In this document: positions 9,348 to 17,658 of the stretch, piece by piece
How positions within the stretch are numbered: the first letter of the stretch is position 1
Layout: every line of letters starts with the position of its first letter
IMG/VR virus record: IMGVR_UViG_3300009505_000032
Location: 1 to 37,947 of that record
Origin: a virus
DNA length: 37,947 nucleotides
Strand: one strand, 5' to 3'
Notes under the pieces: model-generated
What the model was told of the DNA's origin: nothing
Seen by the model: the letters and a program-made list of their open reading frames with translations, nothing else
The model's database searches: none
Translations under genes and position numbers: made by a program

Positions 9348-11104
9348 CCGACCCCTGCACCCAATACGCCAAGGACGTTGAGGCTGGCCGCATTGTGGCT
9401 GGGCCGCATGTGCGCGATGCTTGCAAGCGTCATCTTGACGACTTGGTGACGGGTGCGGATCGTGGGTTGGTATTTGATACCAGCGAGGCGGATAGGTTCT
9501 ATCGTTTTTGCAGCGGCATCTTGCGGCTGTCAGAGGGGCAGTTTGACGGAACGCCGTTTACGCTTCAACCAGCGCAGGCATTCATTGCGGGTTCTATCTT
9601 TGGGTGGAAGTACACCAAGACAGGCAAGCGGCGGTTTAGACGGGCTTACATTGAGCAGGGGAAGGGTAACGGCAAGTCACCGCTTGCGGGAGCTATCGGT
9701 CTTTACGGGCTTGTTGCTGATGGTGAGGCGGGGGCGCAGGTCTATGCGGCGGGTGCTACGAAAGAGCAGGCGGGCATTTTGTTCCGTGACGCTGTTGGCA
9801 TGGTGGACAAAGCGCCATCGCTGGATAAAATTATCAGGCGCAGCGGCGGGCCGGGGCGTGAATATAACTTGGCGCACCTCAAGTCCGGCAGCTTCTTTCG
9901 ACCTGTATCGCGGGAAACAAAGAAAACGGGTTCGGGTCCGCGTCCGCACTTTGCTTTGTGCGACGAGGTCCACGAGCATCCAGACGGCGGCGTGATTGAA
10001 ATTCTGGAACGCGGCTTCAAGTTTCGCGAACAGCCGCTATTGATTATGATTACAAACAGCGGCTCTGATCGTCAGTCGATTTGCTGGATGGAGCGCAAGC
10101 ACGCGGTGAAGGTCGCGGCACAGGACACGCTGGACGATACGACTTTCAGCTATGTCTGTGCATTGGACGATGACGACGATCCGTTTGAAGACCCGTCTTG
10201 TTGGATTAAGGCAAACCCATTGCTAGGCGTAACGATCACGCAAGACTATCTAGCCATGCAGGTAAAGCAAGCCAAGGACATCGCTGCAAAGGCTAACGGC
10301 ATTCGGCGGCTGCACTTCTGCCAATGGACTGACGCGGAAAGCGCATGGATTAGCCGCGCGATGTGGACTAGCGTCGAGGATGCCAGCTTGTCACTGGATC
10401 AATTCGACGGCGAAGTTTGCTATGCGGGGTTGGACCTTTCAGCTAAAACCGACTTGACCGCAAAGGCTTTGATATTTGCAGACGGGTTTACCGACGATCA
10501 AAAGCCAAAGTTCGCGGCGTTTGTTCACGGGTACACGCCAGCCGATACGCTAAAGGCTAGGGCGGAAAGGGACGGCGCGCCCTATGACTTGTGGGTTGAT
10601 GCTGGATTTTTGACTGCAACGCCGGGAAAAAAGACGCGGTTGGATTACGTTGCGCAGGATTTGCTAAACGATGCTGACCGTTTCGAACTGGATTTTGTGG
10701 CCTATGATAACTTCTTGATAGCTGATTTTGAAGCTGTCTTGGATGATATGGGCGCGACGTTGCCTATGCTGGACCATCCGCAGGGTTGGAATAAGCGCAA
10801 ACGCAAGACGCCAGATGGCGATGAAATAGAACTATGGATGCCCGGCAGCGTTGATGAGTTGGAAACGCTTATCATGGAAGGCCGTATCCGCGTGCATGTA
10901 AACCCCGCGCTGCAAACTGCCGTGGCGTCTGCTACGTTTGACACGTCACCTGCCGATCTGCGAAGGTTTACAAAGCACAAATCAACGGGGCGCATTGACA
11001 TGGCCGTAGCGTTGGCGATGGCGGTTGGCGCTGCAACTGCGCGTTCTGATGGCGTTGAAGTGTCGCCGTGGGATGATGAGGGATTTACGCTTAATGTGCT
11101 ATAG
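9344..11104 (+). CDS. terL: Terminase large subunit
   Basis: A 586-residue packaging motor. Walker A lies in YIEQGKGNGKSPLAG (about 102-116), Walker B with catalytic Glu in ALCDEVHEH (about 204-212), and the RNase H-like nuclease begins at YAGLDLSAKTDLT (about 360-372) with further acidic residues in VAYDNF and GRIDMAVALAMA near the end. Length and domain order are normal. Translation starts at a TTG that overlaps the small subunit's stop (TTGA), which suggests coupling to keep subunit ratios. It pumps DNA into the prohead at the portal. Confidence 0.95.
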   Translation: MTDPCTQYAKDVEAGRIVAGPHVRDACKRHLDDLVTGADRGLVFDTSEADRFYRFCSGILRLSEGQFDGTPFTLQPAQAFIAGSIFGWKYTKTGKRRFRRAYIEQGKGNGKSPLAGAIGLYGLVADGEAGAQVYAAGATKEQAGILFRDAVGMVDKAPSLDKIIRRSGGPGREYNLAHLKSGSFFRPVSRETKKTGSGPRPHFALCDEVHEHPDGGVIEILERGFKFREQPLLIMITNSGSDRQSICWMERKHAVKVAAQDTLDDTTFSYVCALDDDDDPFEDPSCWIKANPLLGVTITQDYLAMQVKQAKDIAAKANGIRRLHFCQWTDAESAWISRAMWTSVEDASLSLDQFDGEVCYAGLDLSAKTDLTAKALIFADGFTDDQKPKFAAFVHGYTPADTLKARAERDGAPYDLWVDAGFLTATPGKKTRLDYVAQDLLNDADRFELDFVAYDNFLIADFEAVLDDMGATLPMLDHPQGWNKRKRKTPDGDEIELWMPGSVDELETLIMEGRIRVHVNPALQTAVASATFDTSPADLRRFTKHKSTGRIDMAVALAMAVGAATARSDGVEVSPWDDEGFTLNVL

Positions 11105-12384: not shown

Positions 12385-12928
12385 AATTAGGGGCGGCATT
12401 CCCGCAGAAATAACTCAAGGCGATGACGGCATTCTTGTAGAAGGATATGCCGCTGTCTTTGGGGAAGAAGTAAGTATTGGCGGCATGTTCCGCGAGGTTA
12501 TTGAGCGCGGCGCATTCACTGATGCAATCGGGCGTGATGACGTTGTGTTTTTGATTAACCATGACGGTTTACCGCTTGCGCGTACAAAGTCAGGAACTTT
12601 GACGCTTTCACAGGACGATCACGGCCTAAAGATCAGTGCGCGTCTCGATAAAGACGATCCTGATGTGCGGGCTATTTCTGGCAAAATGAAGCGCGGCGAC
12701 TTGGACAAGATGTCATTCGCGTTTTATCCAGAGGTGCAGGAGTGGGACGAAAGTGGCGACTTGCCGTTGCGTCGCATTAAGCGGGCCGCGCTTGATGATG
12801 TTTCTATCGTTACACGCCCTGCATATGACGGAACAGAGATTGCATTGCGTAGTTTAGCATCTTCGCGTAAAGTGTCAGAAAGCGCACAGGAATTTCGGCT
12901 TAGGTTGAAATCTAAGTTGATACGATAA
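12374..12928 (+). CDS. Prohead maturation protease, HK97 family
   Basis: A 184-residue serine protease of the HK97 prohead family, which trims the capsid protein's scaffolding domain after assembly. GYAAVFG (24-30) near the start, catalytic His63 in FLINHDG and Ser114 in DKMSFAF are visible, and DVSIVTRPAY ends the domain. Gene order portal-protease-capsid is standard. It overlaps the portal gene. A perfect hairpin begins inside its stop codon. Confidence 0.93.
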   Translation: MTREIRGGIPAEITQGDDGILVEGYAAVFGEEVSIGGMFREVIERGAFTDAIGRDDVVFLINHDGLPLARTKSGTLTLSQDDHGLKISARLDKDDPDVRAISGKMKRGDLDKMSFAFYPEVQEWDESGDLPLRRIKRAALDDVSIVTRPAYDGTEIALRSLASSRKVSESAQEFRLRLKSKLIR

Positions 12929-12945
12929 CAGCGGTTCCCGCTGTT
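12927..12945 (+). repeat. 8-bp hairpin at the protease stop
   Basis: AACAGCGG-ttc-CCGCTGTT is a perfect stem with a three-base loop, starting within the TAA stop of the protease gene. A short TTTT follows after five bases. It may protect the capsid mRNA 5' end after processing, or act as a partial terminator. Confidence 0.65.
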
Positions 12946-12958
12946 CGCCCTTTTCGGC

Positions 12959-13020
12959 CCTTGGGCAAGGTCACACTAGGAACGCCGCGAGGCGTCCCGT
13001 CCCATAGATGGAGGCCGCAA
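12959..13020 (+). promoter_or_regulatory. Structured leader of the major capsid gene (copy 1 of 2)
   Basis: CCTTGGGCAAG, then the hairpin ACGCC-gcga-GGCGT (12982-12995), then TAGATGGAGGCC with the GGAGG ribosome binding site. The second copy is at 17196-17256 before the major tail gene with the same order and spacing, 62 versus 61 bases to the start codon. GCGA is a GNRA tetraloop. CCTT-gggc-AAGG may form a second small hairpin. It is likely a translation-boosting or stabilising 5' element for the two most abundant virion proteins. Confidence 0.7.
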
Positions 13021-14313
13021 ATGGCTACTTTGAAAGAACTGCGGGAACAGGCAGCACGCACGCTGACCGAAGCCCGCTCGATGCTTGACAGCATTGACGA
13101 CAAGGCAACGCCGGAAGCGCGCACCGAAGCAGAGCAATCTGTTGACCGCGCACTTGACGAGATGTCGCAAATTGAAGCACGCACCGAGCGCATGGAAAAG
13201 CTGGAAGCGCATGAAAAGCGCATGGCGTCCGCAAATGAAGCTGACGAGCGTTCGCGCCGTGAAAACCGCCGTCCCGGAATGGACCCTGCGGAAGTCACAA
13301 CTGGCGGCGATGTTGATTATCGCACAGCGTTCCACCAGTATTTGCGCGCACAAGGCCAAAAGGGTGAGATGTCCACAGAGGCTCGTTCGGTTCTTAACGC
13401 TGGTTATAAGAATGTTGAACTTCGCGCACAGACAACCGCAGACGCGGCTGGTGGTTACACTGTCCCGACTGAGTTGCTGAATATCCTTGTTCGTTCAATG
13501 GCAGCTTGGGGGCCGATGTACTCCGAAGATGTTGGCACAGTGCTGACAACTTCCGGCGGCGGTACACTGACAATGCCAACCGTGAACGACACGGCGGTAA
13601 CTGCGGTTGCATCCGGTGGTGAAGGCGTGACGCTTGTTGACGATGGCGGCAAAGACGTGACGTTTGCTGAAAAGACGCTTTCCGCGTTTGCATTCAACAC
13701 CGAGTGGCTGCGCGTTTCGAAAGAGCTTGCAGATGACAGCATCTTTGCGATGGAGCAACTGCTTGGCGATCTGCTTGGCGAGCGTCTTGGCCGCATTGCT
13801 AACTTGCAGCTTACCACAGGCACAGGTTCTTCCGCGCCGAATGGTATCGTGACAGCATCGACTGCGGGTAAAGTTGCAGCCGCAACCAACGCAATCACAG
13901 CCGATGAAATCATCGACTTGCTGCATTCTGTTGACCCTGCTTATCGCACTGGGCCAAAGGTCGGATTTATGTTTAACGATGGCACTTTGCAGGCTATCCG
14001 CAAGCTGAAAGACGGCGACGGCAACTATCTATGGCAGATGGGCAACGTGCAGCAGGGCGTCCCCGGTTCGCTGCTTGGTTACAACTACCGCATCAACCAA
14101 GCTATGGCTGGTCTGGGCAGTGGTGTTGATAGCCGCGTGATGTTGTTTGGTGATACTGGCAAGTATTATGTCCGCAAAGTTGGCGCACCTTTGATCGGCG
14201 CGTTGCAGGACAAAGACTTCTGGCCCGGCTTTGGTGTTGCTGGCTATATCCGCTTTGACGGTGAACTTGCAGACACAGCCGCAGTTAAGCACATGGCGCT
14301 TGCCGCAGCTTAA
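13021..14313 (+). CDS. Major capsid protein, HK97 fold, with N-terminal delta domain
   Basis: A 430-residue capsid precursor. Residues 1-85 are a highly charged coiled coil (LKELREQAARTLTEARSMLDSIDD...), the scaffold-like delta domain removed by the protease. The mature shell protein begins around residues 85-120 and includes GGYTVPTELLNILVRSM, FNTEWLRVSKELADDS and the C-terminal FGVAGYIRFDGELADTAAVKHMAL, typical of the family. The ATG at 13021 follows GGAGG; a longer frame back to 12961 is the leader read as protein. It is followed by a stable hairpin. Confidence 0.95.
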   Translation: MATLKELREQAARTLTEARSMLDSIDDKATPEARTEAEQSVDRALDEMSQIEARTERMEKLEAHEKRMASANEADERSRRENRRPGMDPAEVTTGGDVDYRTAFHQYLRAQGQKGEMSTEARSVLNAGYKNVELRAQTTADAAGGYTVPTELLNILVRSMAAWGPMYSEDVGTVLTTSGGGTLTMPTVNDTAVTAVASGGEGVTLVDDGGKDVTFAEKTLSAFAFNTEWLRVSKELADDSIFAMEQLLGDLLGERLGRIANLQLTTGTGSSAPNGIVTASTAGKVAAATNAITADEIIDLLHSVDPAYRTGPKVGFMFNDGTLQAIRKLKDGDGNYLWQMGNVQQGVPGSLLGYNYRINQAMAGLGSGVDSRVMLFGDTGKYYVRKVGAPLIGALQDKDFWPGFGVAGYIRFDGELADTAAVKHMALAAA

Positions 14314-14324
14314 TCAGTTTCTAG

Positions 14325-14346
14325 GGCGGCAGGGAAACTTGCCGCC
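14325..14346 (+). repeat. 7-bp hairpin after the capsid gene
   Basis: GGCGGCA-gggaaact-TGCCGCC forms a perfect stem 11 bases after the capsid stop. No T run follows, so it is more likely an mRNA 3' stabiliser that sets capsid message level above that of the genes downstream than a full terminator. Confidence 0.6.
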
Positions 14347-14371
14347 TCACTAAGCTGAAAAGGGGAATGAT

Positions 14372-14557
14372 ATGAAAGTTAAACTGTTGATTGCGCGGGC
14401 AACCGCGAACGGTTCTGAAAATCGCGGCGACGTGGTTGATGTTTCTGACGATCAAGCCGTTCGCATGATTGAAGCGGGGCAGGCCGAGGCCGTTCGTAAC
14501 GGTGCTGCGCCGGAAAGGGCCGTTAAGCGCAGCAAGTTTGAGAAGGCCAGCAAGTGA
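14372..14557 (+). CDS. Small head-region protein
   Basis: A 61-residue protein starting MKVKLLIARATANGSENRGDVVDVSDDQAVRMIEAGQAEAV, a pattern common just after the capsid gene in HK97-like phages. No firm function is assigned to these; they fold as a small beta domain and carry a basic tail. The ribosome binding site AGGGGA precedes the ATG. Its stop overlaps the connector's GTG start (GTGA). Confidence 0.7.
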   Translation: MKVKLLIARATANGSENRGDVVDVSDDQAVRMIEAGQAEAVRNGAAPERAVKRSKFEKASK

Positions 14558-16765: not shown

Positions 16766-17178
16766 TGGGTGTTGAATGGGAATATCAAAAGGCGGTATTT
16801 ACTGCCTTGGACCTGATTAAAGCGTCTCTTGGCGTCGTCGGTGTTTATGACACAGTACCACAGTCGGAGGACGGCGGTTCAAATGTGCCGTTCCCTTATA
16901 TCGCAATGGGAAACAACTTTGTGACCCAACTTGATACACAAACCAAAAACGGGTTTACGTTCACAACCCGCATCCACACTTATAGCCGCACAGGGTCAAT
17001 GAAAGAATGCAAGATAATCCAAGGCGGCATTTATGCGGCACTGCACAGGCAACCTTTAACTGTTACTGGATTTAATGCGTTCGAACTGTTAAGATCGGAC
17101 ACGGAGTGTTTCGCTTTACAAGACGGTCAAATTCATGGAATATGTGAATATATCGGGCTTGTAGAAGTCGCAAGTTAA
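16765..17178 (+). CDS. Tail terminator protein (DUF3168)
   Basis: A 137-residue tail terminator that caps the tail tube and joins it to the head. DTVPQSEDGGSNVPFPYIAMGN, TRIHTYSRTGSMKECKII and IYAALHRQPLTV follow the DUF3168 pattern. The ATG at 16765 overlaps the upstream stop; a TTG one codon earlier is unlikely. It is followed by the structured leader of the major tail gene. Confidence 0.88.
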   Translation: MGVEWEYQKAVFTALDLIKASLGVVGVYDTVPQSEDGGSNVPFPYIAMGNNFVTQLDTQTKNGFTFTTRIHTYSRTGSMKECKIIQGGIYAALHRQPLTVTGFNAFELLRSDTECFALQDGQIHGICEYIGLVEVAS

Positions 17179-17195
17179 CAGCCCTATTTCCCGCG

Positions 17196-17256
17196 CCTTG
17201 GGCAAGCGTTGGATTGAACGTCGTGAGACGCGCATATCCCTTAGATGGAGGCCCCT
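17196..17256 (+). promoter_or_regulatory. Structured leader of the major tail gene (copy 2 of 2)
   Basis: It has the same elements as the capsid leader: CCTTGGGCAAG (17196-17206), hairpin CGTC-gtga-GACG (17219-17230) and TAGATGGAGGCC with the ribosome binding site. Compared with copy 1, the stem keeps its pairing through a C-G to T-A change on both sides, and the loop changes from GCGA to GTGA, both GNRA. Sequence between the elements has diverged, so what is kept is the structure and spacing. Confidence 0.7.
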
Positions 17257-17658
17257 ATGGTCAAAACTGCTGGACGTTTATGCGTCATTAAAAAAGCCAC
17301 CACAACTATTGGCGGCGGGCGGACTGTTGGCATTACTGTCAACGGGTCTGCAATCAACGTCGAGGATCAAGGCGATCTTGGATTTCAGACATTCCTTGCC
17401 GATGTTATTACGGGTCGATCAATCGAATTGACGATTGATGGATATGAGGAAGATCAGGTTATCCGCGACATTGCTATGGCTGCAACATCAACGGGTCAAT
17501 TCCTGACAGACATCACGTTTGAATATCCGAACGGCGATGTGATTAGTGGTGACTTCTTCTTGTCTAGCTACTCTGAAACTGGCGCTTATGAGGACGGCCA
17601 GACGTTCACGGCTGCTTTCTCAAGCGACGGGGCGTGGACTTACACGCCAGCGGTGTAA
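17257..17658 (+). CDS. Major tail tube protein
   Basis: A 133-residue tube protein of the TP901-1/gene-transfer-agent type: MVKTAGRLCVIKK, then GITVNGSAINVEDQGDLGFQTFLADVITGRSIELTIDGYEED and a beta-rich end GQTFTAAFSSDGAWTYTPAV. It polymerises as hexamer rings around the tape measure. I chose the ATG at 17257, five bases after GGAGGC; the ATG at 17245 lies in the ribosome binding site itself. Its position between tail terminator and chaperone genes is canonical. Confidence 0.88.
   Translation: MVKTAGRLCVIKKATTTIGGGRTVGITVNGSAINVEDQGDLGFQTFLADVITGRSIELTIDGYEEDQVIRDIAMAATSTGQFLTDITFEYPNGDVISGDFFLSSYSETGAYEDGQTFTAAFSSDGAWTYTPAV

Follow-up and report, generated by a model that had tools for sequence, protein, structure and literature searches.

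A candidate pseudoknotted RNA leader upstream of capsid, tail and other virion genes in diverse phages

A viral contig of 37,947 nucleotides (IMG/VR record IMGVR_UViG_3300009505_000032; the whole stretch was analysed and is hereafter called the window) carries two copies of a leader, one before its major capsid gene and one before its major tail protein gene, which sequence comparison across phages establishes as an RNA element with a definable anatomy and set of served genes. The element comprises four parts, namely a hairpin (P0), a GCCY tetramer, a second hairpin (H1) and an optional GNRA hairpin (H2), followed by a Shine-Dalgarno sequence of the form GGAG(G)CC. On these comparisons, its core is the RGGC-loop hairpin together with the Shine-Dalgarno-GCC. 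We give roughly even chances to the proposal that it serves high-copy virion genes as a translation-initiation leader, pseudoknotted and insulating.

The late operon of the window is ordinary, with genes for terminase, portal, protease, capsid, adaptor, neck, tail terminator, major tail protein and tape measure. The leaders were confirmed at 12959–13020 and 17196–17256, and their resemblance is far above chance. An earlier note on this DNA had described shared blocks, a hairpin and near-identical spacing, which the sequence bears out at both leaders. CCTTGGGCAAG occurs at 12959–12969 and 17196–17206, and TAGATGGAGGCC at 13005–13016 and 17242–17253, with no other exact copies of either in the window, and the distances to the start codons are 62 bases (ATG 13021) and 61 bases (ATG 17257). 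The window contains exactly two matches to the combined leader pattern and none to its backward control.

All features of the two leaders lie on the plus strand. In the capsid leader, P0 is an 8 bp hairpin seen in the sequence (AACAGCGG-TTC-CCGCTGTT; 12927–12945) that overlaps the stop codon (12926–12928) of the head maturation protease gene. It is followed by GCCC (12947–12950), a candidate pseudoknot partner of the H1 loop on the basis of family covariation, by H1 as placed by comparative alignment (GGCC-C(bulge)-TT-GGGC-AA-GGTC; 12956–12972), and by H2, a GNRA hairpin seen in the sequence and in family comparison (GG-A.C mismatch-ACGCC-GCGA-GGCGT-CC; 12979–12998). The copy of TAGATGGAGGCC is an extended Shine-Dalgarno (GGAGG, 13010–13014) that runs into GCC (13014–13016) ahead of the gene for the HK97-type major capsid protein (13021–14313; 430 aa; phrog_10, E 3e-64). 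In the tail leader, P0 would be a weaker hairpin, read from the sequence (CTTGT-agaagtc-GCAAG; 17158–17174), immediately 5′ of the stop codon of the tail terminator gene. The candidate partner GCCC (17181–17184; sequence and family covariation), H1 (GCGC-C(bulge)-TT-GGGC-AA-GCGT; 17193–17209; comparative alignment) and H2 (CGTC-GTGA-GACG; 17219–17230; sequence and family comparison) follow in the same order, and TAGATGGAGGCC again provides, by sequence, an extended Shine-Dalgarno and then GCC before the major tail protein gene (17257–17658; 133 aa; phrog_1407, E 7e-12). Both hairpins of the earlier note, CGCC-gcga-GGCG and CGTC-gtga-GACG, are thus present, but the better-conserved half of the anatomy had been overlooked: CCTTGGGCAAG is the core of a second covarying hairpin, GCCC stands 5′ of it, and a further hairpin lies at the upstream stop codon. 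With −10.1 kcal/mol, the two leaders share the second strongest anti-Shine-Dalgarno energy among 24 genes of the window.

Plain minimum-energy folding of the single leaders gave no signal (z −1.0 to 0.2), and the evidence for their structure is comparative. A scan of IMG/VR for CCTTGGGCAAG-N20-40-TAGATGGAGG returned 104 contigs, and three more scans (for the GGAGCC form and for H2 with a Shine-Dalgarno) returned 74, 106 and 15 contigs, the four contig sets overlapping in part. A covariance model was built from 55 diverse members; a broad pattern run on genome contigs, whose matches were mostly chance, was filtered with it. The model found two copies in many contigs, often ~3.3 kb apart. Among contigs holding both capsid and tail-protein starts, the motif precedes both in 70 of 98, so that the coupling of the two leaders first noticed in the window recurs across phages; the proportion is not a population estimate because every contig had been gathered through one of these two genes or through the element.

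In an alignment anchored at invariant core bases, H1 consists of a stem of 4 bp, a bulged base that is C in 176 of 197 members and otherwise U, then N-U, an NGGC loop and AA. The first loop base is G in 181 members, A in nine, C in six and U in one. Stem pairs 1–3 occur as all four Watson-Crick types and pair 4 as C-G, G-C, A-U and U-G; these counts show variety and not pairing rate, because the set was required to pair. In a structure-blind MAFFT alignment, the six H1 pairs were paired in 97% compared with 79% in shuffles, and the covariation score of 0.418 exceeded the 0.108 of shuffles (reached by none of 500) as well as slid versions (at most 0.064). Where no pairing was required, all three outer pairs formed in 252 of 311 core copies, a redundant set standing before a Shine-Dalgarno and an open frame, and two of the three in a further 48. 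Positions 6 and 13 show hardly any covariation, A13 being retained irrespective of the base opposite, as expected if AA is a pseudoknot loop. The claim of the earlier note that the leader is an RNA element with covarying stems is therefore upheld by H1, which shows compensatory changes beyond both controls as well as constant orientation and position relative to the served gene, as a structured cis-acting RNA should. Conservation in the H1 core and the Shine-Dalgarno block is overstated because the search patterns fix parts of both, leaving free the outer stem pairs, the upstream GCCY and P0; p values are optimistic because sequences within phage groups are kin. A chance origin of the element was ruled out by the backward control, the recurrence in 104 contigs and the covariation relative to shuffles.

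The GCCY–loop covariation points to a pseudoknot. GCC is found 5′ of H1 in 95% of non-redundant elements compared with 39% in shuffles, and GCC followed by C or U stands 4–9 nt 5′ of H1 in nearly all elements. The base after GCC matches the first loop base, A occurring with U in 5 of 5 cases and G with C or U in 99 of 100, and the C-loop members misfit (U in three, C in one). For this pair of positions (loop base 8 and the last base of GCCY) Fisher's test gives p 0.0015, with few A-loop members and with the three core pairs invariant. A second GCC, directly after the Shine-Dalgarno, was found in 50 of 57 elements with H1 and in 1 of 12 without (p 2e-7), a comparison confined to elements found by H2 and the Shine-Dalgarno only, in scans that leave free both H1 and the bases after GGAG. 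Stricter stem rules gave the same direction with a small sample. Of the seven exceptions that carry H1, six have CUUCGG as their loop, a sequence expected to favour a UUCG tetraloop, and these members are probably unable to form either pseudoknot; the six represent few independent events because they belong to one related family of tail genes. Since the H1 loop fits both the upstream GCCY and the Shine-Dalgarno GCC, the two would be mutually exclusive partners. The upstream pairing has some covariation behind it, the downstream pairing co-occurrence only.

H2 is in most cases a hairpin of 5 bp capped by a GNRA-type loop. An A.C mismatch is conserved in 51 of 61 five-pair stems, and the pairs beyond it are mostly G-C or C-G. 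A GNRA hairpin of at least 5 bp was found in 61% of long-spacer elements and in 1% of shuffles. The GNRA hairpin had been stressed in the earlier note, but it proves dispensable because 25 of 115 non-redundant elements lack it and have no room for it, their spacer from H1 to the Shine-Dalgarno being only 5–21 nt. H2 without H1 precedes other virion genes. The distance from GGAG to the start codon is 6–8 nt in 106 of the 115 elements. Within the Shine-Dalgarno block of the tail leader, an ATG at 17245 is in frame with the gene (MEAPMVK...), a phase that is not conserved in relatives. A leader peptide or alternative start was rejected, as the ATG in GATGGAGG has no fixed frame relative to the start codon (28, 20 and 13 across the three phases).

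The H1 and H2 scans required no gene, and the list of genes served also draws on capsid-homolog searches. Six PHROG families of major head proteins (phrog_10, 29, 1005, 283, 334 and 212) are found behind the leader, together with tail proteins of phrog_1407, 158, 807, 290 and 8234 (the function of the last is unnamed, and we infer its tail role from its place), tail sheath (165), tail tube (185) and scaffolds (3927 and 673). Single cases comprise a baseplate wedge, a T7-like tail tubular protein, a portal and a protease. A prophage-like region (L224) has a form of the element before capsid, sheath and tube. As judged by family assignment, the served genes are mostly those of high-copy virion proteins of unrelated families, with some that are not high-copy (scaffold and, singly, baseplate wedge, portal and protease). 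The range of the element thus extends beyond two genes and beyond one phage group.

The start-codon spacing, the strong extended Shine-Dalgarno, its GCC tie to the H1 loop and the choice of genes together indicate a role in translation initiation. We infer an effect on translation, a toggle and a trigger for it as follows. The element would be a modular cis-acting mRNA leader through which high-copy virion genes in the late polycistronic mRNA are translated strongly and without dependence on the gene upstream. During RNA synthesis, GCCY and the RGGC loop would form a compact H-type pseudoknot that leaves the Shine-Dalgarno free, with P0 and the pseudoknot preventing upstream ribosomes or RNA from occluding it. 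Alternatively, the RGGC loop could take as its partner the GCC on the 3′ edge of the Shine-Dalgarno, and such a closed site would permit tuning by ribosome load or a bound factor. A more far-reaching version, which we consider unlikely in full, is a portable bistable pseudoknot in which one loop has two GCC partners, 5′ and at the Shine-Dalgarno. Siphoviruses, myoviruses and podoviruses would have exchanged it as a general leader, and it would both switch and match the output of the major virion proteins, following upstream translation or a factor common to them.

The main rival to a translation leader, itself improbable though it deserves weight, is stabilisation of mRNA ends. The late transcript would be cut or trimmed between P0 and H1; in the upstream fragment P0 would shield the 3′ end, in the downstream fragment H1/H2 would cap the 5′ end, and capsid and tail mRNAs would accumulate in consequence. 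P0 would suit such a shield: its sequence is unconserved, its place adjoining the upstream stop codon and 5′ of GCCY is kept in most elements, and stable hairpins stand on the other side. A P0 hairpin (z below −1) was found in 81% of non-redundant elements compared with 13% of control segments, with a median z of −2.1 against 0.2, a result that speaks for the translation leader as well. In one contig (L401), P0 just 5′ of the element resembles a classical intrinsic terminator with a U-run (GCCCGCTTCGAGCGGGTTTTTT), and the leader may therefore follow a transcription stop in some phages. Stabilisation alone, however, leaves unexplained the link between the H1 loop and the Shine-Dalgarno GCC and the tight start-codon spacing. 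A doubtful alternative is an operator at which a trans-acting factor, either a protein or a small RNA and encoded by phage or host, reads the bulged-C/RGGC and GNRA hairpins and switches or matches virion genes together. The conserved unpaired bases (bulged C, NGGC, AA, GNRA loop and A.C mismatch) and the recurrence of the element at several genes within a single phage would suit such a factor, but a pseudoknot could also account for the unpaired conservation, and the unrelated products (six head families and several unrelated tail and scaffold families) argue against autoregulation by one product or by the gene's own protein. A DNA element, such as a promoter or protein-binding palindrome starting transcription of the capsid and tail genes, would fit the short intergenic gap before genes needing strong expression but is very improbable, given that the stems change in compensating pairs while strand-specific loops stay constant, and that orientation and Shine-Dalgarno spacing are fixed. 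Translation leader, mRNA end protection and trans-acting factor may also be combined.

SAM-II and preQ1 class riboswitches are short H-type pseudoknot leaders whose 3′ partner strand includes or touches the Shine-Dalgarno. The element resembles these translational riboswitches as a short candidate H-type pseudoknot leader near the Shine-Dalgarno; unlike them, it has no Rfam match, serves virion rather than metabolic genes and has a second, upstream candidate partner for its loop, and we know of no ligand pocket in it. The leader pseudoknot of T4 gene 32 is likewise in phage mRNA, is kept across related phages and acts on translation, but there autoregulation by one protein is at work, whereas the present candidate pseudoknot, also kept across phages, precedes many unrelated genes. 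The T7 gene 10 leader is similarly a strong leader ahead of a major capsid gene, and is not, to our knowledge, a covarying element common to capsid, tail and sheath genes of unrelated phages. The MS2/R17 coat-protein operator is a small tetraloop hairpin that has one bulged base and overlaps translation initiation signals. H1 resembles it in being small and in having a single bulged base and a four-base loop; the element differs in its bulged C and RGGC loop and in preceding capsid and tail genes rather than replicase, and is not known to bind coat protein. The output of capsid and tail-tube proteins (hundreds of subunits) relative to few-copy proteins from the same late mRNA is usually ascribed to ribosome-site strength. 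The comparisons suggest one portable RNA device that sets the translation strength of virion building blocks. As one undescribed module marks mostly high-copy genes in unrelated phages, control of virion stoichiometry becomes directly testable; the element also offers a handle for annotating capsid and tail genes not yet recognised as such and, for expression in Alphaproteobacteria, a compact leader part.

The element is common to many environmental phages, probably mostly of Alphaproteobacteria. Its named bacterial carriers, Hansschlegelia plantiphila, Rhizobium lentis, Bartonella tamiae and Oceanicola sp., all belong to this class, and its named phage carriers are Pseudanabaena phages Pan3 and Pan4 and Microcystis phages Mae-JY02 and Mel-JY03. 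Pan4 and Mae-JY02 (L327 and L328) are recorded cyanophages carrying an element otherwise found with alphaproteobacterial names, possibly through shared ancestry or through host misassignment in non-axenic culture. A section of the paper on Pan1–Pan5 likens Pan1 to a phage of alpha-proteobacteria (PMC9837993). The covariance model gave no match in the nearest named capsid relatives, Rhizobium phages RHph_Y3_1 and 16-3 and Labrenzia phage V1, and blastn of H2-only and H1 variants against named phages gave noise. The element is missing, wholly or in its H1 part, from some relatives that share the capsid gene, and is therefore dispensable for that gene. Where a capsid homolog has no such element (L029, L034, L037, L046, L061 and L073), a terminator-like hairpin and T-run often stand between the protease and capsid genes, perhaps another solution to the same problem.

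An origin from host genes was rejected, as 385 alphaproteobacterial genomes gave 13 pattern matches compared with six backward-control matches; by eye, most of the 13 look like chance and only one or two are element-like. In 295 genomes of one family, covariance searching yielded a single weak match; the strict filters applied limit its sensitivity. On the question of gene transfer agents, a capsid protein search in 61 genomes of one family found one distant match. The element is undescribed and absent from Rfam 15: neither leader of the window and none of the elements of 14 diverse relatives had a match, and a literature search, outside whose scope lay subscription papers and preprints, found no description, although a published list of candidate viral RNAs could include it. 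Just 3′ of the capsid gene of the window (14268–14380, plus strand), a weak Moco riboswitch match (20.3 bits, gathering 36, E 0.2) is most likely chance. The only Rfam match among the 14 relatives was an int-alpA RNA (RF02996, 45 bits) at 10198–10262 on the minus strand of an element-bearing phage contig (L433).
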